Assembly (NCBI RefSeq): GCF_025351285.1
Contig: NZ_JANXWG010000048.1
Location: forward strand, 30,967-94,966
Length of the DNA stretch: 64,000 nucleotides
Source: Novosphingobium sp.
GTDB taxonomy: Bacteria; Pseudomonadota; Alphaproteobacteria; Sphingomonadales; Sphingomonadaceae
Direction: 5' to 3'
Part shown: piece after piece, positions 14,513 through 34,189 of the stretch
Layout: every line of letters begins with the position of its first letter
Position numbering within the stretch: the stretch's first letter is position 1
Position numbers and translations under genes: made by a program
Notes under the pieces: generated by a model
Databases searched by the model: none
Seen by the model: the letters and a program-made list of their open reading frames with translations, nothing else
What the model was told of the DNA's origin: nothing

Positions 14513-15583
14513 ATGGCGTGGAAGCCCATGTTCGATCCTGCAATGACGGCTTGCGATAAAGGTACTGCCGGCCACACCGCGATCATAACCTGGTTCGTGG
14601 CCGACGATGCCGCGAACGCGACTTGGTTTCCGCAAGTCGGCGGCCGGTCCGATGCGCCCGAAGCACAGGCGACGTACTGGCGTTGTACGGTGGCATTTTT
14701 CGCTTCCAGCCTCGCGCTCAATCCCGGTGCGCGGCACATGTTCTACACCAACACCCGCGTGCCCCGGATCGATGGAGTCGATCTTGCCGCGCTGTTCGCG
14801 CGGTGGGGGGTGGAGGTTATTGCGCTGCCGATCACCTATCGGCTGCCGCGCAATGCCGTGTCTTCATGGGGCAACCAGTTCTATGTATTCGATGTTCTCG
14901 ATGACCTGGCAGGGCGCGAAGACATTGCGCGATCCATTGTGCTCGACAGCGATTGCGTGTGGCGCCAGCCGGTCGATCGGCTGGTAGCGGCCATCGATGC
15001 CCATGGCGCGCTAACCTACGAACTCGATCACAGCGAACATGCCGAGCACGAGGCGATCAACGGGCTGTCGCGCGCAGGCATGGCGCGGTTCCTGGCGCGA
15101 CACAGCGGACCCGAGCGCTCGGCAACGCCCTATTTCGGCGGTGAAATCTACGCGGCTCGGCGCGATGTGACCCGAGCGATCGCGGCGCGCGCCAGGGTGC
15201 TATGGCCCGAACTGGTGGCCGGCGCGCCAGACGCCCCGCGCGAGGAAGCGCACCTGCTTTCAGTGATCTACGCACTGGAGAGGATTGCGCCAGGCACCGC
15301 AAATGGCTTCATCCGGCGGATGTGGACCACCTTCCATCATCACAACCTGGCGCCGACCGACGCGGCGCTCGCGATCTGGCACTTGCCCGCCGAGAAGAAG
15401 ACCGGGTTCGCTGATCTGTTCCGCGCCATTGTGGCCGATCCCGCTTGCGATCCGCGCCATGATGCCGCGTCGATGGGGCTGGCTCCAGCCCAGGTGGCGC
15501 GTGCGATGGGCTGGCCGCGGCGGCGCCCGGCGAAGTTCGCGCGCGATCTGTCGCTCAAGCTGCGCGAGAAGATCGGCACGTGA
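14513..15583 (+). CDS. Putative glycosyltransferase-like protein (GT-A-type DxD) of unrecognised family
   Basis: SIVLDSDCVWRQPVDRLVAAID, PYFGGEIYAARRDVTRA, REEAHLLSVIYALE; within a glycosyltransferase run. Confidence 0.55.
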   Translation: MAWKPMFDPAMTACDKGTAGHTAIITWFVADDAANATWFPQVGGRSDAPEAQATYWRCTVAFFASSLALNPGARHMFYTNTRVPRIDGVDLAALFARWGVEVIALPITYRLPRNAVSSWGNQFYVFDVLDDLAGREDIARSIVLDSDCVWRQPVDRLVAAIDAHGALTYELDHSEHAEHEAINGLSRAGMARFLARHSGPERSATPYFGGEIYAARRDVTRAIAARARVLWPELVAGAPDAPREEAHLLSVIYALERIAPGTANGFIRRMWTTFHHHNLAPTDAALAIWHLPAEKKTGFADLFRAIVADPACDPRHDAASMGLAPAQVARAMGWPRRRPAKFARDLSLKLREKIGT

Positions 15584-16839
15584 TGGCCGAGAGTCGCGAC
15601 GATCCTGTCAATGTCCTGATCGTCGGCATCAATTACGCGCCCGAGGCCGTCGGCATCGGCCCGTTCACGCAAGGCATGGCCGAAGGCCTGGCCGGGCTGG
15701 GCTTTGCGGTCGAGGCCGTGGTCGGCAAGCCCTACTATCCGCAGTGGCGCGCCATGCCGGATTTTGCCGGCGGCGGATGGGCACGGTCGACCGAGAACGG
15801 CGTCAGGATCGTGCGCTGCCCGCATTACATTCCTCATGATCCCACCGGATCGAAGCGCATCGTCCATCTGGCGAGCTTTGGCGTTTCTGCGTTCGGGCCT
15901 GCGGTCCGCGCAGCGCTGCGCCCGAAGGGCGAGCGCCTGGCGGTGATCATCTGCATCGCGCCGGCGTTGCTGAGCGTGCCGGTGGCGTGGATCGCGGCGA
16001 AGCTGGCCGGGGCGAAGCTGTGGCTGCATGTGCAGGATTTCGAAGTCGAAGCGGCGTTCGCTACCGGACTGGTCGGCGATGATGGCTGGGCCGCGCGGCT
16101 GGCGCGAGGGGTTGAGAACACGTTGCTGCGGCTGGCCGACACGGTCTCCACGATCAGCCCGCAGATGTGCGCTAAGCTCGTGGCCAAGGGCATCGATCCG
16201 GCCCGCGTGATCGAGGTCCGCAACTGGGCCAATGCTCCCGCGCCCGATCCGCACGAGGGAGCGTCGTATCGTGCCGAATGGGGCCTGGGCGATCGCAAGG
16301 TGGCGCTCTATTCGGGCAATATCGCCAACAAGCAAGGCATCGATATTCTTGTCGAAGCCGCACGGATGTTGGCGGAACGGAGCGACATCGCTGTCGTGAT
16401 CTGCGGCGAGGGACCGAACCGGGCACGATTGGAAGCGCTGGCGGCGGGGTTGGGCAACGTGTTGTTCCACGATCTCCAGCCGGCCGCGCGGATGGGCGAA
16501 TTGCTGGGTCTGGCGAGCGTTCATTTGTTGCCGCAGATTGCCGGCGCGGCCGATCTGGTGCTGCCGTCGAAGCTGGCGAACATGCTCGGATCGGGGCGCC
16601 CGGTGGTGGCGACCGCGCTGCCTGGAACCGGGCTTTATGCTGAAGTCGAAGGGTGCGGTATTTCGGTGCTGCCGGGTGATGCAAAAGCCCTGGCCAATGC
16701 GATCGTGGCGCTGGTCGACGATCCGGCGCGCGCGGCGGAACTGGGCGTTGCAGCGCACGCGCGTGCGGATGAACGCTGGTCGCAGCCGGCGGTGATCGCG
16801 CGGCTGGCCGCGGCATTGCGCGCGATTGCGGGGCGCTGA
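15580..16839 (+). CDS. WcaI-like glycosyltransferase family 4 protein
   Basis: VNVLIVGINYAPEAVGIGPFTQGMAEGLAGLG...VVGKPYYPQWR; VALYSGNIANKQGIDILVEAARML; ATGA overlap with the upstream gene. Confidence 0.88.
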   Translation: MMAESRDDPVNVLIVGINYAPEAVGIGPFTQGMAEGLAGLGFAVEAVVGKPYYPQWRAMPDFAGGGWARSTENGVRIVRCPHYIPHDPTGSKRIVHLASFGVSAFGPAVRAALRPKGERLAVIICIAPALLSVPVAWIAAKLAGAKLWLHVQDFEVEAAFATGLVGDDGWAARLARGVENTLLRLADTVSTISPQMCAKLVAKGIDPARVIEVRNWANAPAPDPHEGASYRAEWGLGDRKVALYSGNIANKQGIDILVEAARMLAERSDIAVVICGEGPNRARLEALAAGLGNVLFHDLQPAARMGELLGLASVHLLPQIAGAADLVLPSKLANMLGSGRPVVATALPGTGLYAEVEGCGISVLPGDAKALANAIVALVDDPARAAELGVAAHARADERWSQPAVIARLAAALRAIAGR

Positions 16840-19039: not shown

Positions 19040-20281
19040 TCAGATGTCCAACTCGCCGAGCAATGCCGCGATGTTGTCGCGATATCCGGCAAACGTGTAG
19101 TTCTGCGCCTCGGCCTGGGCATTGGCGCGCCAGGTATCGAGCCGATCGCGGTCTGCGATCGTCTGAACCATCGCCGCATGTACGGCATCCGTGCTGATCT
19201 CGTCGAGCATGATCCCGGTTTCGGGGGTGACCACAGGTGCGCAATGGCGCGACTGGATCAGTGCGCAGCCCGACGCCAGCGCCTCGTAAAGCGTGATCCC
19301 GGCACCTTCAAAGTAGCTCGGCAGCATGAACACGTGGTGCTCGGCCATGATCCGCGGCACATCTGCACGCGCGACCGTGGGGATATAGGTCACGCGGTCT
19401 GCATAAGGTGCGAACGCCTTGGGTGGCACGCTGAGCGAACCGACGATGGTCAGTTCGGCTTGGTCCGTCGGGATGCGCGCGATCGCTTCGAGGATGTGGT
19501 GGATGCCCTTGCGCGGGATAACGAGGCCCAGGAACAGGAACTTGACCGGAGCCTTGCGATCGATCGGCAGCGGGGGCGGCACATCGGCGAACAGCGCTTC
19601 ATCGAAGCAGTAATTGAGCACGCGGATTTTCGCCGCGATGGCGGGGTCCTGCGTTGCGTCGCGGATCGTGCCTGCAGCGAACGTGCAGCCCACGAGGATG
19701 GTGTCGGCCAGTTCGTACTCGCGCTGGTCGCGGGCAATGTTGGCGGAGTCCTCGGCCCGTTCGGTCGGCAGGAACCAGTCGCCATAGCGCGACGCAACAT
19801 CGGCCATCATCGCGTTGTAGATCCGAAAATCGCCATTGGTGCGATCGAGGATGCACGTGCGGCCCTGGGCCTTGGCCAGCTCGAACGCCTTGAGCGAACT
19901 GCCGTTATAGCCCCACAGCGCGAAGCGTTCGGGTGAGCGGATGTCGGCGGCAATGCCGTCAACGAACTTGCGGTTGCCATAGGCGTCGAGCCGCCCGGCC
20001 AGTTTGCGCATGCCGCCGCGCATCGCGATACGCTCGATCCATTCGGTGAGCCCGGCGGTACGGACCAGCGAAGGATCGAGCGCGGGATGGCTGAACCGGC
20101 GGAATTCGCTGTGCAGCTTGCGGCCCAGCGGCCCCGGCAACCAGCGCTCGGCGCGATAGGGCCAGCGGTCGGGCTGATAGAATATAGAGGTTGCGTACCA
20201 CGCCAGCCGATCGAGCTGCTGCAGCGCCAGCGCGGTCTGCCAGCTATGCTGGGTGCCCGGGTGAAAGACTGCGATCTTCAT
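19040..20281 (-). CDS. Glycosyltransferase family 4 protein
   Basis: MKIAVFHPGTQHSWQTALALQQLD; KFLFLGLVIPRKGIHHILEAI; MLPSYFEGAGITLYEALASGCALIQS. Confidence 0.87.
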   Translation of the reverse strand: MKIAVFHPGTQHSWQTALALQQLDRLAWYATSIFYQPDRWPYRAERWLPGPLGRKLHSEFRRFSHPALDPSLVRTAGLTEWIERIAMRGGMRKLAGRLDAYGNRKFVDGIAADIRSPERFALWGYNGSSLKAFELAKAQGRTCILDRTNGDFRIYNAMMADVASRYGDWFLPTERAEDSANIARDQREYELADTILVGCTFAAGTIRDATQDPAIAAKIRVLNYCFDEALFADVPPPLPIDRKAPVKFLFLGLVIPRKGIHHILEAIARIPTDQAELTIVGSLSVPPKAFAPYADRVTYIPTVARADVPRIMAEHHVFMLPSYFEGAGITLYEALASGCALIQSRHCAPVVTPETGIMLDEISTDAVHAAMVQTIADRDRLDTWRANAQAEAQNYTFAGYRDNIAALLGELDI

Positions 20282-20430: not shown

Positions 20431-20913
20431 ATGCCCACCCCGATCACGAACCCCGCAGGATATGTCGTTCCCGTCGCGCTGAGCTTCGCCGATGCTTCGG
20501 GCGCCGCCGCGCTCGTCGCTTCGGCCAATCCGCTGCCGGTGTCGTTCAGCACAGGGCTGGGCGAAATCGAAGTTCGGAACGATGTGGGCAATCCGCTGGC
20601 GATCAGCGGGTCGGTAACGCCGATCTGGACCGCTTCGGGCAAGGCTGCGGTCAGCGGCTCGGTTGCCGCAGGTGCGCAGACGGGCGTGTTCTCGCCGCTG
20701 CCATGCCGCGATTTCAACGTGACGATCGCCGGAACAGGCGCGGCGCAACTCGAACGCCAGTTCGCCGGCGATGCCACCTGGTACGTGGTCCTGGCCGATG
20801 CGCAAAGGCAGGCCCTTCCGCCATCGTTCACCTTCAGCGAAGCCGAAGCAGCGGTGGGCTACCGCGTGAACGTGATCTCGGGTGGCCCGTTCCAGGTGCG
20901 CCTAAGCCAATAG
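20431..20913 (+). CDS. 160-aa phage-structural-like protein of unknown function
   Basis: Beta-rich MPTPITNPAGYVVPVALSFADASGAAALVASANPLPVSF..., small virion-protein-like; first gene of the phage-like cassette. Confidence 0.55.
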   Translation: MPTPITNPAGYVVPVALSFADASGAAALVASANPLPVSFSTGLGEIEVRNDVGNPLAISGSVTPIWTASGKAAVSGSVAAGAQTGVFSPLPCRDFNVTIAGTGAAQLERQFAGDATWYVVLADAQRQALPPSFTFSEAEAAVGYRVNVISGGPFQVRLSQ

Positions 20914-20977
20914 CGGACGCGTCTCGGCCGCCAACCCAAGCCTACGCCCTCAGCCTTTTCGCAGGAAGCACCAGCCC

Positions 20978-23296
20978 ATGTCCGTCGATATCCTTGCCCG
21001 CGCCCAGGCGGGCGCCGCCAACGCCTCCGCGATCCAGGCACTCAGTCGCGCCAACACCATCGAATTGTTTGCGCAGTTCGGCGGCGTGACGATCGACGCA
21101 TCGATTTCGACGGTTTCGACTACGGGTTATGCCGCAGCCGGCGTTGGCCGGGGCGTCTATGTGGCTGATTCAGCGGCCAACGCCACGCTGGCGGCGCGCT
21201 TCCCGGCGTTCTGTCGCAAGACCGCGAACAATCGCTACTTTCGGCTGGTCGGGCCAGCGGTCACGCCAGAGCAGGCCGGCGCGACCGGTATCGTGGGGAC
21301 CAACGACCAGCCCGCGATCCAGGCGGCGATCGATTATGCGACGTCGATGGCGATCCCCGAAGTCCACCTCAAGGGTGCATACGAAGCCTGGTGCACGCCG
21401 CGCACCAGTTCGCTCCAGACTCAGGCCGACGACGGCCACCTGCTGGTGATCCGCGGCAATATCGCGATCATCGGGCTTGGCGCCGGCGCGACCATCAACC
21501 GCAAGAATTACCAGGGCGCTGACCCGGTCAACCAGCAGACGATGCCCAATCCTGCCGACGGCCGGTGGCGCGGAGGTGGCCTGTTCTGGACGCATACCGG
21601 CACGATCGACCAGAACACGACCGTTATCCTGCGGAACTTCAAGCTCGATGGCGGGATCAACCAGGGAGTGGATTTCAACGCATACTACGGGATCAACACG
21701 CAGGACGGCTGGGACCTGACCGACAAGGGCATCTGGGTGCAGGACTTGCGGTCGGGCACGCTGATCATGGAAGACGTCGAGATCACGCGGTTCCGCGGCG
21801 AGATCAACTACTGGTCGGGCTATTCGGATGCCACGTCGACCGATCGGCTGTTCATGACGCGTTGCTATATCCATGAAACCAACGGCGATGCCAACAATGC
21901 CACCGGTGGCTACGCCGAGTTCCATCACTGCCGCTTCGGCAAGGGCAATTCGGCCGAAGAGGCGCTCGGCCGCAGCGGGCACCGCTACTACGATTGCGAA
22001 TTCTTCGATTGTAACGGGCTGACCTTCGTGGGCGGGCCCGATCCGATCTTTCAGAGCGGGTATATCTACACCTACCCCATCCGTCAGCCCGGGTATGTGC
22101 CATGGATCGAGCTGTCGAACTGCACCTTCCGCAATTGCAAGGCGATCCAGATCGGCAACTGGGTGCGTGGCAACGTCACCGCGATCGACAGCTATTTCAA
22201 CGCGGGCGCATCCGACGTTTCGTTGACCATCAACGCCTGGCTGGACAACGCGACCGGCTACACGGCGGTCATCGTAGCGGGGCCGCCGTCGCTGACCACG
22301 CAGTTCGACAGTTGCCCGCCGGGGGTTTACGTCCCCGCGGTCGAGCGGTGCTATGTCAAGGTCAACTGCTTTCTGACGCGACAGGCCGCGGCTGCGGGCA
22401 ACCACTGGGGTTCGGTGTTCGCGGTGTCCGGGATCATCAGCGCCGGCACTTGTTCGTTGACCAGCGACTATGCCATCGCGCAAAACGTCTGGGTTCCGTA
22501 TGGTCCCGCGACGGGTCTGCGAAACGTGCCCGCAATCACTTGCGGCCAGTTTGTTAGCCAGGGCGTTCCCTACGGCGGGACTTCGGATTCGCCAGCGACC
22601 GACGTGGTCTACACCCCGACCTGGAGTTCCGTGGCGATTTCGCCAGGCAGCGCCAGCCCGATCAACGTGACTTTGAGCCCGACTTATGCGGGAACCACAT
22701 TCACCTTCGAGGACGGCGCGCGCGCAATCTTCTGCCATAACGGAGCGGCCGGGCGGCAGATCCGCTTTGCCGAAGGTGGGGCCGGCCTCGCGCTCAAGCT
22801 CGATCGCGTGCTGACCAATCCGGGCGACTTGCTCGAACTGCGTTACAGCACGACCACGGGAAAGTGGCACGAGGAGCGCTTCGGATCGTCGGTCCCGGTC
22901 GAGGCGACAGCGCTCGACATGTGGGCGGGGACGAGCTCGGCCAAGGCGGTCACGCCGCGCAAGATCTACGACATGGCGGCGTCGCAGGCGCTGACCGATG
23001 CTCCGACGATCGCGGTGGACTTCAACGCGGGCATCAACTTCAGCGTGACGCTGGCTGGCAACCGCACTTTGGCCAATCCGGTCAACGCGAAGTCCGGCCA
23101 GTCGGGTGTGATCCGGGTAATCCAGGACGGTAGCGGTGGCAGGACGCTGGCTTACGGGACCAACTGGCGCTTTCCCGGTGGCAGCAGCAGCGGCGGGGCG
23201 CTTTCTGGCACGGCCAATGCGGTCGATGTCCTGGCCTATTTTGTCGGCAATGACGGGCTTGTCTACGCCACGGTCGCCAAGGGCTTTTCGGCGTGA
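20978..23296 (+). CDS. Tailspike-like parallel beta-helix (pectate-lyase-like) protein
   Basis: GPAVTPEQAGATGIVGTNDQPAIQAAIDYATSMAIPEVHLKGAYEAWCTP (tailspike-style beta-helix entry), NFKLDGGINQGVDFNA, VEITRFRGEINYW; C-term MWAGTSSAKAVTPRKIYDMAASQAL is a phage tail-fiber-type motif. Confidence 0.75.
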   Translation: MSVDILARAQAGAANASAIQALSRANTIELFAQFGGVTIDASISTVSTTGYAAAGVGRGVYVADSAANATLAARFPAFCRKTANNRYFRLVGPAVTPEQAGATGIVGTNDQPAIQAAIDYATSMAIPEVHLKGAYEAWCTPRTSSLQTQADDGHLLVIRGNIAIIGLGAGATINRKNYQGADPVNQQTMPNPADGRWRGGGLFWTHTGTIDQNTTVILRNFKLDGGINQGVDFNAYYGINTQDGWDLTDKGIWVQDLRSGTLIMEDVEITRFRGEINYWSGYSDATSTDRLFMTRCYIHETNGDANNATGGYAEFHHCRFGKGNSAEEALGRSGHRYYDCEFFDCNGLTFVGGPDPIFQSGYIYTYPIRQPGYVPWIELSNCTFRNCKAIQIGNWVRGNVTAIDSYFNAGASDVSLTINAWLDNATGYTAVIVAGPPSLTTQFDSCPPGVYVPAVERCYVKVNCFLTRQAAAAGNHWGSVFAVSGIISAGTCSLTSDYAIAQNVWVPYGPATGLRNVPAITCGQFVSQGVPYGGTSDSPATDVVYTPTWSSVAISPGSASPINVTLSPTYAGTTFTFEDGARAIFCHNGAAGRQIRFAEGGAGLALKLDRVLTNPGDLLELRYSTTTGKWHEERFGSSVPVEATALDMWAGTSSAKAVTPRKIYDMAASQALTDAPTIAVDFNAGINFSVTLAGNRTLANPVNAKSGQSGVIRVIQDGSGGRTLAYGTNWRFPGGSSSGGALSGTANAVDVLAYFVGNDGLVYATVAKGFSA

Positions 23297-24240
23297 ATCC
23301 GTTTGCGAGCGCCATGCTGGGCAAGGGCAGGGCGACTGCCGTTGCCAACACCCTGAACTATTCGTTCACCGGCGGAGCGCTGCCATCCGGAGTGACGCCA
23401 AGCGGTGGCGCGGGCGGGCGGCTGGTCAATACAGCAGGCCTGCTGGTCAGCGCGAGCACCCCGCGGTTCGACTACCATCCGCTCACGCACGCCGCGCGGG
23501 GGTTGCTGGTGGAACCGGCCGGCACCAATCTGTGCCTGCAAAGCGAGAGCTTCGACAGCGCCACCTGGTCCAAGACGAGCATAGTGACGACTGCCAATGC
23601 CACGGTGGCGCCCGATGGAACGAATACCGCCGATCTGGTTGCGGCCACCTCGACCGGCGCCTTCATGAACCAGGCGGTGGCCAACGTCATGACCGCCGCA
23701 TTCACCTACTCGTGCTTCTTCAAGGCCGGCAACTTCCAATGGTTGCGGTTCGTCGTGCAAAGCGCATCGGGCGCACATTCGGCGCAGTTCTGGTTCGACC
23801 TGACGAACCGTGTTGCGGGGGTGGGGGTTGTCGCGGCTGGCTCGCCGACCATCACCGCGTTTGGACTGGATGATGCCGGCGGTGGCTGGTGCCGGTGCTG
23901 GGCCACCGTGCAGGTTCCGTCAGAAACGAGCGCACTGCTCGTGCTGCTGGCGGCGACCGGCAACGGTTCGGGCGCGCAACCGGCCAACGCGCAATATTAC
24001 GTGTGGGGTGGGCAGATCGAACAATCGCTCAAGCCGACGAGCTATATCGGCCCCACCACCACCGTCAGCGCCAGCCGCAGCGCCGATGCGATCGGCTTCG
24101 TGGTGCCCGCGGCAACCGGCCGCCTGGTCTATGCATTCGATGATGCCAGCCAGCAAACTGTAGCGACGGTGCCCGGAGCGTATACAGTGCCCGCCACGCT
24201 TAATCGGGCGCGGATCGTTTCGATCACGGGAACGGCTTGA
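23293..24240 (+). CDS. Phage head-spike/fiber-domain-like protein with carbohydrate-binding-like fold
   Basis: TPRFDYHPLTHAARGLLVEPAGTNLCLQSESFDSATWSK...VAPDGTNTADLV resembles the phage head spike fiber domain; 4-bp overlap with the upstream ORF. Confidence 0.65.
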   Translation: MNPFASAMLGKGRATAVANTLNYSFTGGALPSGVTPSGGAGGRLVNTAGLLVSASTPRFDYHPLTHAARGLLVEPAGTNLCLQSESFDSATWSKTSIVTTANATVAPDGTNTADLVAATSTGAFMNQAVANVMTAAFTYSCFFKAGNFQWLRFVVQSASGAHSAQFWFDLTNRVAGVGVVAAGSPTITAFGLDDAGGGWCRCWATVQVPSETSALLVLLAATGNGSGAQPANAQYYVWGGQIEQSLKPTSYIGPTTTVSASRSADAIGFVVPAATGRLVYAFDDASQQTVATVPGAYTVPATLNRARIVSITGTA

Positions 24241-24289: not shown

Positions 24290-25489
24290 ATGGCAGCGGG
24301 TGATCATCGAGGCGGCAGACCGATCACGATCGGCCTCGTCTGGGCGCAGTTCGCCGCTTACCACATCGATCGCTGCGAAGCGGTTGCGCGGCGGTTCGAA
24401 GGACGTGCGACGGTGCTGGCCGTGGAAGTGGCCACTACGTCGAGCGATTATGCTTGGGAGCCGTCGGGCGCCATAACCGGTGGCCGCAAGGTGACGCTGT
24501 TCCCGGGAAAATCGTTCGACCAGTTGTCGAACTGGCAGCGTTTCCGTGGCTGCTGGGCCGAGCTGCGGCAATGCGATTGGGTGTGCATCGGGCTGAGCTA
24601 TGCCGAACTGTCGACGATCCTGCTGGTCGTCATCTTGCGGCTTTCGGGCAAGCGGATGGTGGTGTTCAGCGAATCCAAGCTCGACGACAAGCCGCGTAAT
24701 ACGTTGGGAGAACTGGCCAAGCGCCTGATCCTGTGGCCCTACAATGCGGCAATCGTCGGGGCGACACGGCATATCGCCTATTTCCGCATGCTGGGCTTTC
24801 GGCGCCGCGCGGTGCTGCCGGGTTACGACGGCGTTGGCCTCGATCGCGTCCGGGCCCAGGGCGGCGGGCAGCTTGCGCCGGGTGGTCGTCCGTTCGAGCA
24901 GCGCGACTTCGTGTTCGTCGGCCGGTTCGTCGACAAGAAGAACCTGCCGCATCTGGTTGAGTCCTTCGCTCGCTATGTTGCGATTGCCGGGGCGGGTGCG
25001 CGGCGCCTCGTTCTGGTCGGCTCCGGCCCCGACGAACCAGCCTTGCGCGCCATGGTCGGAACCTTGGGCCTTGCCGATCAAGTGGAGTTCCCCGGCTTTC
25101 TTCCCGCAGGCGCGGTTTCGCGCTGCCTGGCCGACGCACTGGCGCTCGTTCTCCCAAGCGTCGAGGAACAATGGGGCCTCGTGGTCAACGAAGCGCTGGC
25201 ATTCGGCTTGCCGGTCATCGTTTCGCACCAGGTGGGTTCGCGCGACGCCTTAGTGCGCGATGGCGTGAACGGCCATGTCGTTACTTCGGATTCGGTCGAG
25301 CAACTGGCGCAAGCGATGCACGATATCGCCAGCGACCGGGGCAAGTGGGAAGCGAAGGTTGCGGCGTCGCACCAGCGCGCATGGCTGGGCGATTGCGAGC
25401 GGCTGGCCGATGCACTGGAATTGCTGATCGAACCGCAGAACGCTCACGCCCGCGCCAATGTCGATCGGTTCCTCGCCCAACTGGCCTGA
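24290..25489 (+). CDS. Glycosyltransferase family 4 protein
   Basis: FVFVGRFVDKKNLPHLVESFARY, LVLPSVEEQWGLVVNEALAFGLPVIVSHQVGSRDALVRDGVNGHVV. Confidence 0.9.
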   Translation: MAAGDHRGGRPITIGLVWAQFAAYHIDRCEAVARRFEGRATVLAVEVATTSSDYAWEPSGAITGGRKVTLFPGKSFDQLSNWQRFRGCWAELRQCDWVCIGLSYAELSTILLVVILRLSGKRMVVFSESKLDDKPRNTLGELAKRLILWPYNAAIVGATRHIAYFRMLGFRRRAVLPGYDGVGLDRVRAQGGGQLAPGGRPFEQRDFVFVGRFVDKKNLPHLVESFARYVAIAGAGARRLVLVGSGPDEPALRAMVGTLGLADQVEFPGFLPAGAVSRCLADALALVLPSVEEQWGLVVNEALAFGLPVIVSHQVGSRDALVRDGVNGHVVTSDSVEQLAQAMHDIASDRGKWEAKVAASHQRAWLGDCERLADALELLIEPQNAHARANVDRFLAQLA

Positions 25490-26425: not shown

Positions 26426-26845
26426 ATGACCAAGTTTCTGCACACGATGATCCGGGTGCGCGATCCCAAGGCCACAGTGGCGTTCTTCGAGCTGTTCGGC
26501 GTCCACGAAATCCGGCGTTTCGATAGCGAGAAAGGCCGCTTCACGCTGATCTTCCTTGCGGCGCCTGGGCAGGAAGGCGTTGCCGAAATCGAACTGACGC
26601 ACAATTGGGACCCGGAAGAGTACACCGGCGGGCGCAATTTCGGGCACCTGGCGTTTCAGGTCGACGATATCTACGCCACCTGCCAGCGGCTGCACGATGC
26701 CGGCGTGGTCATCAACCGCCCGCCGCGCGATGGGCACATGGCGTTCGTCCGCTCGCCCGACGGGATCTCGATCGAACTGTTGCAGGATGGCCGGCTTGAA
26801 CCCGCCGAACCCTGGGCGAGCACTGCCAACACCGGCGAGTGGTAA
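26426..26845 (+). CDS. gloA: Lactoylglutathione lyase-like VOC protein (glyoxalase I)
   Basis: MTKFLHTMIRVRDPKATVAFFE, ELTHNWDPEEYTGGRNFGHLAFQVDDIYATCQRL, SPDGISIELLQ. Confidence 0.88.
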   Translation: MTKFLHTMIRVRDPKATVAFFELFGVHEIRRFDSEKGRFTLIFLAAPGQEGVAEIELTHNWDPEEYTGGRNFGHLAFQVDDIYATCQRLHDAGVVINRPPRDGHMAFVRSPDGISIELLQDGRLEPAEPWASTANTGEW

Positions 26846-29800
26846 GCCAGCCGATCGTGCTCGATGCCGTTTCAGACCTGCCCGGCGCGCCCGATGGCGC
26901 CGAGCCCGCGCGCGAGGTCTTCGCACCCATTGCGCCGACCGTTCCGCTGCGCAGCGGCGAGCCTTACGCGCGCGATGAACTGCTGCAGGAATTGTTCGCC
27001 GCAACCGTGGCGCAATATGGCAGCCGCGCCGCGCTCAAGCTGCTGGCTCCCGATGCCGAGTTCGATCGCCGTACAGAGCTGACCTATTGGGAACTGTCGG
27101 ACCGTGCGCTCCAGTTCGCGGGCATGTTGCGCGCGATGGGGATCGAACGCGGCGATCGCGTGGTGATCTGCCTGCCGCGCGGGCTCGACCAGTATATGGC
27201 GATCCTTGGCATTCTTTGGGCTGGCGCGGCTTATGTGCCTGTGGATTGGGCCTACCCGCAGGACCGCATCGACTTCATCATCGAGGATTCGGCCGCGTGC
27301 CTGGTCGTCACCGACAGCGAGCGCGCTGGCGCGATGCCGGTGCTGACGTTGGCGATCGATACCGCGCTGGGCGATCTTGCCGCGCAGCCAGTCGCGCCGC
27401 TGCCGCGTTCCGAAACAGGCGCTGACCCGGCTGACCTCGCCTACATCATCTATACTTCGGGTACGACCGGGCGGCCCAAGGGCGTGATGATCACGCATGC
27501 CAACGCCTGCCACCTGGTGCGGTCCGAATGCGCGATCCTGGGGCTCACGCCCGACGACAAGGTGTTCGGTGGGTTCAGCCTGGCCTTCGACATGTCGGTC
27601 GAAACGATGTGGAGCGCGTTCTTCACCGGCGCGCTGCTGCTGGTGGCAACCGAGGGGCTGGCCAAGGCCGGTCCCGACATGGCGCTGCCGCTGGTGAGCG
27701 AAGGCGCGACCGTGTGGCATGTGGTGCCTTCGCTGCTGGCGCTGGTCGAAACAGCGATGCCGGCGCTGCGGCTGGTCAACCTGGGGGGCGAGGCCTGTCC
27801 ACCCGAGCTGGTCGACCGCTGGGCACGCCCCGGCCTGCGGCTGCTGAACACCTATGGGCCTACCGAGACGACCGTCACCGCGACCTGGACCGAGGTCCAG
27901 CCCGGCCGCCGTGTCACGATCGGCCGGCCGTTGCCCGGCTACACCGCGTGGGTGGTCGACGAAAAGCTGTGGCCGGTCCCGGCTGGCAGCGAAGGCGAAC
28001 TGGTCATCGGCGGACCGGGCGTGGGCGCGGGCTATGTCGGTCGGCCCGACCTCACCGCCGAAAAGTTCGTGTTCACTCCCTTCGCCACGTCCGATGGCCA
28101 ACCGACGCTGATCTACCGTTCGGGTGACCTGGTTCGGCTGGATTCAGTGGGCGACATCGAGTTCATCGGCCGCATCGACACTCAAGTGAAAATCCGCGGG
28201 TTTCGTGTCGAACTGGCCGAGATCGAGGCCGTGATCGCCGATGATCCGGCAGTGGCGCAAGCGGTCGTACAACTGTTCCGCGACGATGATGGCTCGGAAA
28301 TGCTGGCGGCGTTCGTGGTCGGGCGCGGTGGGCCAAATGGTTCGAAGGCGCCGATCGACCTTGAGCCGGTCCGCGCACGCGTCCGCGATCGGCTGCCCAA
28401 CTACATGCGGCCCGCAGCGTACCAGCAGCTCGACGCGATGCCCACGTTGCCGGCATCGGGCAAAGTCGATCGCAAGGCTCTGGTGCGGCCGGTTGCGCTG
28501 CCCAGCGAAGACCGCGAGACGATCGAACCCGAAACCCCGCTCGAACGCGCGCTGCACGCGATCTGGAGCGAATCCTTCGCGGGCCAGAAGGTCTCGGTTT
28601 GCGACGATCTGTTCGAAGATCTGGGCGGCCATTCGCTCAAGGCGGCGCGTCTGGTCTCGGCGATCCGTACGCTGCCGGGGCTGGCCGGTGCCTCGATCCA
28701 GGACCTGTACGACAAGCCGACGATCCGGGGCCTTGCCGAACGGCTGGGCGGCGCGTCGCTGGCCGGGCTGTCGAACGAGAGCGGCGGCGAGGAGACCTTC
28801 ACGCGGATTTCGGACGCGAAACGCCGGCTCTGCGTGATCGCGCAGACGATCGCGCTGGTGCCGATCTACGCGCTCGCCGGGCTGCAATGGTTCTTCCCCT
28901 ACCTCGCCTACACGCACTTTTCGGGGCAGCATGACCGGTTGGAAGCACTGGCGATTTCGGGGCTGGCGTTCGTGTTCATCCCGCCGCTGGCCATGGTGCT
29001 GTCGGTGGTGGTGAAGTGGCTGGTGATCGGTCGCTACCGCGCGGGTGATTATCCGTTGTGGGGCGGATACTATTTCCGCTGGTGGCTGGTGCGGCGCTTC
29101 GCCGACGTGATCGCGACGCCCTACATCGCGGGCACGCCGATGATCCGCACCTATTACCGGCTGCTGGGTGCCAAAGTCGGCCACCGCGCCTTCATCGGGC
29201 GCGGCGTAATCGATGCGCCCGATCTCGTTACCATCGGCGACGATGCGGTGATCAGCGACAACGCGATGATCGCGACCAGTTCGGTCGAGCGCGGGTTATT
29301 GCGGTTGGGACCAGTGGAGATCGGCGCCCGCGCCGGCGTGGGCACGATGGGCATCGTCGGGCGCGGCAGCCGGATCGAAGCGGACGCCGTACTCGATGGC
29401 TTGTCCGCGCTGGCCACCGATGCGGTGATCCCCGCCGGGGAATTGTGGACCGGATCGCCGGCGCGGCCGAGCGGTCGCCCGCCCGAATGCGGTGAGCTGC
29501 CGGTCATTTCGCCACTCAAGCGGGCATTGATCCGCGTGGCTTTGGCGATCGGTGCATTCCTGCTGCCGATCGTGGCGATCCTGCCGATTTCCCCGGGCCT
29601 GGTCATGATGATCGAGCTCGACTGGAACAGCGAAGGTTATTCCTACCTGCTCGTCGCGCCGCTGCTGGCGACGACATACGTGCTGCTGATGTGCCTGATC
29701 ACGGTGCTGGCCAAGCACCTGATCATGGGCAAGGTGCGCCCCGGTCGCTACCCGCTTGCAAGCTGGTTCTACGTACGGTTCTGGTTCGTGCAGCAGATCA

Positions 29801-30921
29801 ACGATCTGGCGCTCAACTTGCTGCATCCAATTTACGCAACGCTGTTCGTGGCGCCGTGGTATCGGGCGCTGGGGGTCAAGGTCGGCCGGCGTGCGGAAAT
29901 TTCGACCGCGGCGGCGATCGTGCCCGACCTGGTCGAGATCGGCCCCGAGAGCTTTATCGCCGACGACGTGAACTTCGGTGCGGCGCGGATCGAGAACGGC
30001 GCAATCCGGCTGGAGCGCACCACGATCGGCAGGCGCAGTTTCATCGGCAATTCGGCGCTGCTGCCCGCCGGGTCGATCATCGGTGACGACGTGCTGATCG
30101 GCGTGCTGTCGCGCCCACCCGCCGGTGGCGAGGCGTCGGCAAGCGGCGGCACCTGGTTCGGTTCGCCGCCGATTTCCTTGCCGCAACGCCAGCAGGTCGC
30201 GCTGTTCGACGAAGGCGCGCGGTTCAACCCTTCCAAGCGGCTGGTGGTGACGCGGCTGGGAATCGAATCGGTGCGCGTGATCCTGTCGCTGACGGTGTTC
30301 ATCGCGCTGTTCGTGGGCCTGCTGTCGATCGTGGGTTCGATCGACGAACGGCCCAACGGACCGCTGCTGATCGCGCTGGCGTTTCCGTTCCTTTACATCG
30401 GCTTCGCGCTGGGTTGCGGGCTGTTCGTGGTCGCGCTCAAATGGCTGGTGATCGGTCGCTATCGCCAGACCGTGCAGCCGCTGTGGAGCCCGTTCGTGTG
30501 GCGCACCGAACTGGTGACCTCCACCTTCGAGAACCTGGCGGTGCCCAACTTGCTGCTGCCCTTGCGCGGCACGCCGTGGTTGCCGGCCTATCTGCGCCTG
30601 CTCGGTTGCAAGATCGGCAAGCGTTGCTTTTTCGACAGTTCGGATGTGACCGAATACGATCTGGTTTCGATCGGTGACGACGTGGCCATGAACGATTTCG
30701 CCGGCGTGCAGACCCACTTGTTCGAGGACCGGGTGATGAAGGTCGGCCCGGTCAAGATCGGCAACCGCGTTACGATCGGCAGCCACGCGGTCGTGCTCTA
30801 CGATGCCGAGATCGGCGAGGATGCGCAGCTCGGCGACCTGTCGGTGGTGATGAAGGGCGAATTCCTGCCGCCGCGCACCTCGTGGGAGGGTAGCCCGGCG
30901 CGGCTCGCCAGCGGGCATTGA
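26839..30921 (+). CDS. Pls/PosA-family NRPS: adenylation, peptidyl carrier and C-terminal membrane/hexapeptide domains
   Basis: A-domain motifs IIYTSGTTGRPKGVMITH, NTYGPTETTVTATW, YRSGDLVRL; PCP DLFEDLGGHSLKAARLV; C-term has three repeats of TM segments plus left-handed beta-helix (TIGR02353-like). Confidence 0.88.
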   Translation: MVSQPIVLDAVSDLPGAPDGAEPAREVFAPIAPTVPLRSGEPYARDELLQELFAATVAQYGSRAALKLLAPDAEFDRRTELTYWELSDRALQFAGMLRAMGIERGDRVVICLPRGLDQYMAILGILWAGAAYVPVDWAYPQDRIDFIIEDSAACLVVTDSERAGAMPVLTLAIDTALGDLAAQPVAPLPRSETGADPADLAYIIYTSGTTGRPKGVMITHANACHLVRSECAILGLTPDDKVFGGFSLAFDMSVETMWSAFFTGALLLVATEGLAKAGPDMALPLVSEGATVWHVVPSLLALVETAMPALRLVNLGGEACPPELVDRWARPGLRLLNTYGPTETTVTATWTEVQPGRRVTIGRPLPGYTAWVVDEKLWPVPAGSEGELVIGGPGVGAGYVGRPDLTAEKFVFTPFATSDGQPTLIYRSGDLVRLDSVGDIEFIGRIDTQVKIRGFRVELAEIEAVIADDPAVAQAVVQLFRDDDGSEMLAAFVVGRGGPNGSKAPIDLEPVRARVRDRLPNYMRPAAYQQLDAMPTLPASGKVDRKALVRPVALPSEDRETIEPETPLERALHAIWSESFAGQKVSVCDDLFEDLGGHSLKAARLVSAIRTLPGLAGASIQDLYDKPTIRGLAERLGGASLAGLSNESGGEETFTRISDAKRRLCVIAQTIALVPIYALAGLQWFFPYLAYTHFSGQHDRLEALAISGLAFVFIPPLAMVLSVVVKWLVIGRYRAGDYPLWGGYYFRWWLVRRFADVIATPYIAGTPMIRTYYRLLGAKVGHRAFIGRGVIDAPDLVTIGDDAVISDNAMIATSSVERGLLRLGPVEIGARAGVGTMGIVGRGSRIEADAVLDGLSALATDAVIPAGELWTGSPARPSGRPPECGELPVISPLKRALIRVALAIGAFLLPIVAILPISPGLVMMIELDWNSEGYSYLLVAPLLATTYVLLMCLITVLAKHLIMGKVRPGRYPLASWFYVRFWFVQQINDLALNLLHPIYATLFVAPWYRALGVKVGRRAEISTAAAIVPDLVEIGPESFIADDVNFGAARIENGAIRLERTTIGRRSFIGNSALLPAGSIIGDDVLIGVLSRPPAGGEASASGGTWFGSPPISLPQRQQVALFDEGARFNPSKRLVVTRLGIESVRVILSLTVFIALFVGLLSIVGSIDERPNGPLLIALAFPFLYIGFALGCGLFVVALKWLVIGRYRQTVQPLWSPFVWRTELVTSTFENLAVPNLLLPLRGTPWLPAYLRLLGCKIGKRCFFDSSDVTEYDLVSIGDDVAMNDFAGVQTHLFEDRVMKVGPVKIGNRVTIGSHAVVLYDAEIGEDAQLGDLSVVMKGEFLPPRTSWEGSPARLASGH

Positions 30922-31571
30922 TCGATTGCGCTCCGGTGTGGGCCAGCGGGGCATTGGCGCAAGTGCAGTGGATCGAAGGGCGGCCGCTTGCCTGGCGGGT
31001 GCGGCTGGATGACGAACAAACGCAGCGCGATGCCGGGCGTGCCGTGCTTTCGGCGCGCGAAGTTGCGGCGTTTGCACACATGGGGGACGCGCCGTGGCGG
31101 ATCACCCGCCGTCTGCTCGCCAAGGCGCTGATCGCCCATGTCGCGCGGTGCCATCCCGATCACGTCCTGATCGAACGCGACGCTTTCGGCGCGCTGGGCG
31201 TGGTTGCGCCAGCGGGGTGGCACCTCAGCCTGGCGGGCCAGCCGCCGCACGCGCTGATCGGGCTGGATCACGCGCCGATCGGCGTGGATATCGAGCCCGA
31301 GACCGCCGCTCCGCCGCCCGATGACGCCTTTTCAGCCGACGAACTGGCCGCGCTGGACAAGCTCTGGCCCGGAAATGCCGACCGTGCACGGCTTATCGGC
31401 TGGGTTGCGAAGGAAGCGCACGCCAAGGCGAGCGCGCGAGCGCGGCAGCTTGGCCCGCGCGACATAGAACTTGGCACTCACGTGGGCGTGCTTGTCGCCC
31501 AGAGCTGCGCAATGACCACGCATGTTTACGTTTCGATCGACAGCGGGACGATCGCGGCGGTGGCGATCTGA
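30918..31571 (+). CDS. 4'-phosphopantetheinyl transferase superfamily protein (TTG start overlapping upstream stop)
   Basis: LSLAGQPPHALIGLDHAPIGVDIEPE, FSADELAAL, LIGWVAKEAHAKASARA. Confidence 0.85.
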   Translation: MIDCAPVWASGALAQVQWIEGRPLAWRVRLDDEQTQRDAGRAVLSAREVAAFAHMGDAPWRITRRLLAKALIAHVARCHPDHVLIERDAFGALGVVAPAGWHLSLAGQPPHALIGLDHAPIGVDIEPETAAPPPDDAFSADELAALDKLWPGNADRARLIGWVAKEAHAKASARARQLGPRDIELGTHVGVLVAQSCAMTTHVYVSIDSGTIAAVAI

Positions 31572-33259: not shown

Positions 33260-34189
33260 TCAATCCGCAACGTTTTCAAGGAACCAGCGGTATGTCGTTG
33301 CCAAGCCGTCACGCAGCGAAATCTTCGGCTCCCAGCCTCGCGCGCGCAGCTTGTCGGCGGACATCAACTTGCGAAACATGCCGTCAGGCTTGGCAAGATC
33401 GTGGCGCAGTTCGCCTTTGAGGCCGACCACTTCCATCACCAGCCGCGCCGTTTCGGCAATCGACAGGTCGCTGCCGCTGCCGATGTTGATGTGCTCGAAA
33501 TCCTCGTAGTTCTTGAGCACGAACACCGTTGCATCGGCCATGTCGTCGACATGCAGGAATTCACGCAACGGTTTGCCCGTTCCCCAGATTTCCATGCCGT
33601 CCTCGCCCGCGATCTTGGCGCGATGGGCCTTGCGGATCAACGCCGGGATGACATGCGAACTGGCCAGATCGAAGTTGTCATGCGGCCCATAGAGATTGGT
33701 CGGCATCGCCGAAACGAACCGGCGACCATATTGCTGCATGTAAGCCTGGCACAGCCGGATACCAGCGATCTTGGCGATGGCGTACCATTCGTTGGTCGGT
33801 TCGAGCGGCCCGGTGAGCAACGACGATTCCTCGATCGGCTGCACCGATTGCCTGGGGTAGATGCACGACGAACCCAGAAACAACAGCTTTTGCACATCGA
33901 TATCGTGCGCGGTCGTGATGATGTTGTTCTGGATCGCCAGGTTGCTGTACATGAAATCGACCGGATAATTCATGTTGGCCAGGATGCCGCCGACTTTGGC
34001 TGCAGCGATGATCACCATGTCGGGCTTGTTCGCGTGCATCCAGCGGCGCACCTGATCCTGTTCGGCAAGGTCACATTCCTGCCGATCGACGGTCAGGATC
34101 GTGCAGCCCTCCTGGCTTAGCCGACGGACCAGTGCCGATCCCACCATGCCGCGGTGCCCGGCCACCCAGATGCGTTTTCCATCAAGCAC
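33260..34189 (-). CDS. fcl: GDP-L-fucose synthase
   Basis: IWVAGHRGMVGSALVRRL, KLLFLGSSCIYPRQ, NLYGPHDNFDLASSHVIPALIRK, WGTGKPLREFLHVDDMADA. Confidence 0.95.
   Translation of the reverse strand: MLDGKRIWVAGHRGMVGSALVRRLSQEGCTILTVDRQECDLAEQDQVRRWMHANKPDMVIIAAAKVGGILANMNYPVDFMYSNLAIQNNIITTAHDIDVQKLLFLGSSCIYPRQSVQPIEESSLLTGPLEPTNEWYAIAKIAGIRLCQAYMQQYGRRFVSAMPTNLYGPHDNFDLASSHVIPALIRKAHRAKIAGEDGMEIWGTGKPLREFLHVDDMADATVFVLKNYEDFEHINIGSGSDLSIAETARLVMEVVGLKGELRHDLAKPDGMFRKLMSADKLRARGWEPKISLRDGLATTYRWFLENVAD

Follow-up and report, generated by a model that had tools for sequence, protein, structure and literature searches.

In Rhodobacter capsulatus, the capsule is the receptor for the gene transfer agent (GTA) RcGTA (PMC10218006), whose head spikes and tail fibre bind it (PMC10218006; PMC7296036) and whose spike TspA degrades biofilm (PMC13420450). 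Within the Sphingomonadaceae, the gene for the lyase SpnR lies inside a sphingan cluster, and the enzyme has been suggested to free polymer from the cell (PMC5399355). Surface-sugar loci are usually read as sites of biosynthesis and export alone. Here we describe three consecutive genes, numbered 1 to 3, in a polysaccharide locus of Novosphingobium sp. (assembly GCF_025351285.1, contig NZ_JANXWG010000048.1, positions 30,967 to 94,966; this whole stretch of 64,000 nucleotides is the window). We propose that genes 1 and 2 form a glycan-modifying cassette that acts on the host’s own polysaccharide, a reading to which we assign a probability of roughly 55%. The open-licence papers searched gave no earlier description of such a cassette.

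An earlier note, made from the sequence of the window alone, had drawn attention to these genes as a phage tailspike-like group placed between glycosyltransferases. The open reading frames bear this out: genes of 160, 772 and 315 amino acids (aa), all on the + strand and the last two overlapping, are flanked on each side by a GT4-type glycosyltransferase gene, and both motifs quoted in the note are found in the translations. In window positions, the genes and the parts of gene 2 are:

20431..20913, + strand: gene 1 (P0001), 160 aa, a small beta-sandwich protein and proposed partner of the spike
20978..23296, + strand: gene 2 (P0002), 772 aa, a leaderless spike with an N-terminal anchor and a predicted right-handed beta-helix
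20978..21052, + strand: residues 1-25 of gene 2, its anchor, MSVDILARAQAGAANASAIQALSRA, a variant form of the MSxDxxARGLAxxA start
21155..22897, + strand: residues 60-640 of gene 2, its conserved body, a predicted beta-helix with E275, E328 and D404 nearly invariant
22898..23293, + strand: residues 641-772 of gene 2, its C-terminal domain, of phage tail-fibre type, not in relatives from polysaccharide loci
23293..24240, + strand: gene 3 (P0003), 315 aa, with a GTG start overlapping the stop of gene 2, related to Rcc01080 and phage tail proteins

Among 401 Sphingomonadaceae genomes, 28 contain a relative of gene 2. Once the genome under study (4.08 Mb) and the partial matches in G176 and G367 are set aside, 25 other genomes can be compared, and in every one of these loci (25/25) the gene 1 profile finds a family member directly 5' of the gene 2 relative. 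Because this adjacency recurs in 25 other genomes, the arrangement is more than chance, and its conserved part consists of gene 1 and residues 1-640 of gene 2 only. GT4-type genes are among the flanking genes in 23 of the 25 loci, the exceptions being L051 and L063. Other GT4, epimerase and polysaccharide-type export genes surround the pair in most loci; in Qipengyuania-type genomes its surroundings are mostly acyl-CoA dehydrogenase, carboxyltransferase and TetR genes, and one or two GT4 genes accompany it there. The bearers are bacteria of water and soil; named records with the pair include Croceicoccus, Erythrobacter, Qipengyuania, Allopontixanthobacter, Croceibacterium and Novosphingobium.

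The two closest pairs give synonymous divergence (dS) of 0.22-1.19 and non-synonymous divergence (dN) of 0.03-0.12, with dN/dS of about 0.07-0.16; since dN is well under dS, genes 1 and 2 are under purifying selection. No phage particle genes were recognised among the scanned neighbouring genes of the window, as the note had also reported, nor in the related loci, and in base composition the trio resembles the host. We regard genes 1 and 2 as an old unit and very probably a conserved host cassette. Among the genomes sampled the cassette is specific to Sphingomonadaceae; in a class-wide sample of 308 genomes, the genome under study was the sole match to the gene 1 profile.

The genes whose relatives accompany the pair are, in the window:

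15580..16839, + strand: GT4-type glycosyltransferase, with a relative beside or near the pair in most loci
19040..20281, - strand: GT4-type glycosyltransferase, divergent from gene 1, whose close relatives track the gene 1-gene 2 pair
24290..25489, + strand: GT4-type glycosyltransferase, the downstream neighbour, with a relative 3' of the pair in many loci
33260..34189, - strand: sugar epimerase/dehydratase, with relatives close to the pair in many loci

The usual order is a relative of the 15580 gene, the divergent relative of the 19040 gene, gene 1, gene 2 and often a relative of the 24290 gene. The divergent glycosyltransferase tracks the pair. Across 80 genomes, a close relative of it is present in 23 of the 26 that carry the pair, as against one of the 54 others (Fisher p about 9e-16, a value that is optimistic because the genomes are not independent). 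That one exception, G036, proved on inspection to contain gene 1 followed by an anchored spike cut off near its start by the end of the contig. In G185, G127, G047 and G094 the glycosyltransferase gene is far from the pair, and in G127 its frame contains a stop. Co-occurrence even when the genes are unlinked argues for a functional tie.

Most spikes encoded after gene 1 have at their N-terminus a short stretch in common, the ARGLA anchor (MSxDxxARGLAxxA, in some cases varied), behind which stand unrelated domains: the beta-helix of P0002, other beta-helices (L108, from a weak Pfam match, and L112, by eye) and SGNH hydrolases (L103, L104). A conserved anchor with swapped enzyme domains is the typical design of phage receptor-binding proteins. 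In an AlphaFold2 (AF2) monomer model, P0002 is predicted to be a right-handed beta-helix, with per-residue confidence (pLDDT) mostly above 85 over residues 60-640; it begins with helix and has reached the conserved entry motif by residue 97. With Foldseek, the best fold match in the PDB is the mannuronan C-5 epimerase AlgE4 (E 1e-7), and further matches include the tailspikes of phages Belisarius, CBA120, Fri1 and HK620 as well as phage fibre and depolymerase models. The note’s beta-helix assignment agrees with this model; of the fold comparisons that it suggested, that of gene 2 places the protein near tailspikes and AlgE4, and that of gene 1 gave no significant match. E275, E328, D404 and R369 are nearly invariant among gene 2 relatives, and this conservation makes them candidate active-site residues. 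Two beta-helix relatives of gene 2, at L064 9266-10948 and L076 9114-10613, have Tat-like signal starts, one of them lipoprotein-like, and no gene 1 partner.

Gene 1 has no match in Pfam, PHROGs or PDB chains. Its relatives were found in neither cultured phages, searched with P0001 and a viral-contig member as queries, nor plasmids; 17 viral contigs encode them. In the contigs examined, these relatives sit among tail, baseplate or lysis genes, often immediately 5' of a spike. In the gene 1 tree the viral copies form one clade, except for L116, which adjoins L114 and G036, and the direction of transfer is not readable from the tree. We suggest that gene 1 is a small beta-sandwich partner of the spike that would bind its anchor.

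None of the three proteins was seen to have an N-terminal signal peptide (Sec or Tat) or an RTX (GGxGxD) repeat, in keeping with the note’s remark that no obvious signal peptides were seen; signal peptides were judged by eye and with a hydrophobicity scan, without a trained predictor. Nor was a type I exporter recognised in the scanned set of window genes. Across the bacterial polysaccharide loci, gene 1 and the spike alike are leaderless, the G036 spike excepted. An apparent Sec signal peptide is present on both proteins in viral contigs L115, L117, L118 and L119, and on the spike in L120 and L128. In L117 (6697-9829) and L118 (6632-9715), the gene 1 relative and the spike directly follow an endolysin gene; the L117 spike is an SGNH hydrolase by Pfam, and that of L118 appears SGNH-like by eye. 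Given their apparent Sec signals, the proteins of L117 and L118 may be secreted from the lysogen instead of being assembled into a particle.

Gene 3 and residues 641-772 of gene 2 (the MWAGTSS... end) are absent from related loci and look recently added. Of the trio, for which the note had suggested a synteny search, the gene 1-gene 2 pair recurs in 25 other genomes, with GT4-type genes among its neighbours in 23 of them; gene 3 does not recur with it, and relatives of gene 3 are sporadic (9 of 401 family genomes). The C-terminal residues of gene 2 match phage tail fibres. The note’s comparison of the 315-aa protein with head-spike fibres was well founded: residues 52-300 of gene 3, a span of 249 residues, match the RcGTA head spike fibre Rcc01080 (E 4e-21), and gene 3 also matches many phage tail proteins and families. 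Both additions are presumably extra glycan-binding parts. In L119 (6699-8120), a gene 3-like domain (39% identity) is fused behind an apparent phage tail protein I N-terminus; the same contig also encodes a member of the gene 1 family together with an anchored spike.

Sugar epimerases and dehydratases are encoded further along the window, as are an SLBB export protein, a Wzz-like protein, a Capsule_synth protein and an ABC-2 transporter pair, and on account of these genes we read it as a polysaccharide island. Between 34279 and 59176 lie export genes of the ABC-transporter type (SLBB, the ABC-2 pair, Wzz-like and Capsule_synth PF05159) together with Rml-type sugar genes. At 26839-31571, a 1360-aa protein is followed by a phosphopantetheinyl transferase gene; by its sequence the protein looks like a fusion of adenylation, carrier and membrane parts with hexapeptide repeats, and it may be a synthetase of an amino-acid polymer.

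We propose that genes 1 and 2 are maintained by the host and follow the design of a phage receptor-binding protein, in which the spike would carry an interchangeable enzyme-like domain behind its conserved N-terminal anchor, with gene 1 as partner. The target would be a surface glycan to which the co-inherited glycosyltransferase (19040-20281) contributes, and this glycan would most likely be cut or modified, whether by a depolymerase, lyase or epimerase activity or, in some relatives, by an SGNH deacylase. Such a reaction could set chain length or lead to release or remodelling of the polymer. In the genome under study, the unit would have gained the tail-fibre C-terminus on gene 2 and the head-spike-fibre-like gene 3. 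Because the cassette is inherited with one particular GT4, it probably trims or modifies the cell’s own coat; we infer enzymatic activity, a glycan as substrate, binding of gene 1 to the anchor and export to the surface. The note’s domesticated phage-type module tied to host polysaccharide finds good support for genes 1 and 2 in synteny, selection, the GT4 link, independence from GTA presence and the lack of recognised phage genes, but the trio as one ancient unit does not. A wider possibility, which we put forward only tentatively, is a self-standing cellular tailspike system, with a two-part leaderless spike, exchangeable enzymes, specificity matched to a glycosyltransferase and particle-free editing of the cell’s own coat.

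Several points weigh against our proposal. Neither gene 1 nor gene 2 has a leader, and the search for signals, RTX repeats and type I genes in the scanned set gave no export route. A depolymerase or adhesin activity of gene 2 is a reading from predicted fold and context; the global fold scores of P0002 are modest (template-modelling (TM) score about 0.3-0.4), and its putative catalytic residues are candidates only. The GT4-pair association consists of raw counts over related genomes, uncorrected for phylogeny. Finally, the window gene 1 forms the longest branch in its family tree, and with such divergence the cassette may have changed its function in the genome under study.

The absence of leader sequences can also be read differently. 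The spike might stay inside the cell, where it would epimerise or trim chains that are nascent or lipid-linked, and the leaderless state in nearly all polysaccharide loci, the match to AlgE4 and the tight GT4 link would all fit such a biosynthetic role. We consider this unlikely, however: the Sec signals on the closest viral relatives and on the G036 spike, and the Tat-like signals on two beta-helix paralogues, point to work outside the cytoplasm, and the free swapping of SGNH and beta-helix domains also speaks against it. Leaderless proteins would equally suit assembly in the cytoplasm, as expected if the cassette encoded surface spikes of a host RcGTA-like agent, placed within the biosynthesis locus of the receptor and, as happens in Rhodobacter, away from the head-tail cluster. 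The capsule binding by RcGTA spikes and fibre (PMC10218006; PMC7296036), the biofilm degradation by TspA (PMC13420450) and the kinship of gene 3 with Rcc01080 are in line with this, the parallel with RcGTA in mode of action being close, and the genome under study has an RcGTA-like head-tail cluster on another contig (C9; L094 6628-17560), a GTA structural module being what the note had named as a reason to abandon its own reading. Yet the pair does not track GTA presence. In the same 80 genomes, the GTA marker TIGR02217 is found in 17 of 26 pair genomes vs 38 of 54 others (p 0.80); nine pair genomes keep the pair without the marker, and in genus g80 this is so for four of seven. Gene 1 is also without a PDB sequence match and gene 3 without the leucine-glycine repeat of Rcc01080 (PMC7296036), and we find a GTA role rather unlikely. 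As an RcGTA-type component the pair is rejected on this lack of association with TIGR02217 and on the defining parts tested. PF13547 (GTA_TIM), above cut-off in none of the 401 family genomes, is of no use as a GTA marker. The g12 gene of the genome under study, which carries the TIGR02217 domain, is 778 aa long with a large extra N-terminal part, and similar frames of about 780-980 aa are present in many family genomes.

The tracking of the pair by the glycosyltransferase even when unlinked, and the resemblance of gene 3 and the gene 2 C-terminus to binding domains, would also be expected of a surface lectin or adhesin without enzyme activity, the GT4 then glycosylating the spike or gene 1 and not the coat. 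The SGNH hydrolase domains in several relatives and the other GT4, epimerase and export genes around the pair in most loci make this quite improbable. Least credible to us is a decaying prophage tail module brought to the glycosyltransferase genes by chance. Relatives are indeed known for genes 2 and 3 from phage records and for gene 1 from viral contigs, and both gene 3 and the C-terminus of gene 2 have a recent look; against this stand the same gene order in 25 other genomes, purifying selection, the lack of recognised particle genes nearby and the tracking by the glycosyltransferase. For genes 1 and 2, conserved synteny and purifying selection lead us to reject a recent prophage remnant, while for gene 3 alone such an origin is possible.

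A conserved phage-type spike cassette travelling with one glycosyltransferase provides a case in which the change of phage receptor-binding parts into coat-editing tools can be tested. Pairs of spike and glycosyltransferase should be useful for finding the sugar linkage that a spike recognises, and gene 1 is here defined as a protein family without a Pfam or PHROGs match. The cassette is likewise relevant to the way in which leaderless spikes exit the cell and to where GTA spikes came from.

Among the systems described so far, the RcGTA head spike (base Rcc01079, fibre Rcc01080) resembles the locus through gene 3, of which 249 residues are related to Rcc01080. It differs in that the N-terminus of gene 3 is without the leucine-glycine repeat that attaches Rcc01080 to the base pentamer (PMC7296036), gene 1 has no sequence relation to the base protein and the pair is independent of the GTA marker. 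RcGTA TspA (rcc02623) is likewise a host-kept phage-type beta-helix spike, acting on biofilm polysaccharide (PMC13420450), whereas the gene 2 model is without the N-terminal beta-sandwich domain of about 180 residues that precedes the helix in TspA. SpnR, likened here by its description, provides a precedent in the same family for an enzyme gene within a polysaccharide cluster; the passages considered here (PMC5399355) mention neither a partner gene nor a phage-type anchor.

In Rhizobium leguminosarum, Ply glycanases cut the cell’s own exopolysaccharide, and Rap proteins are separate small carbohydrate-binding partners that use the same secretion system (PMC9298526). The division into enzyme and small partner is similar, but the window cassette has no RTX repeat and the scanned window genes include no type I system; Ra/CHDL domains were looked for through Pfam alone. 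The phage beta-helix tailspike depolymerases (HK620, CBA120 TSP2 and Fri1 gp49 of an Acinetobacter phage) are like gene 2 in predicted beta-helix fold and size, and phage tailspikes share with it the lack of a leader and an N-terminal anchor with exchangeable domains behind. Gene 2 differs from the solved spikes in sequence, with an identity of only about 10-13%, and from phage tailspikes in its setting: it stands in bacterial polysaccharide loci without particle genes, is kept across genera and is linked to one GT4 glycosyltransferase.

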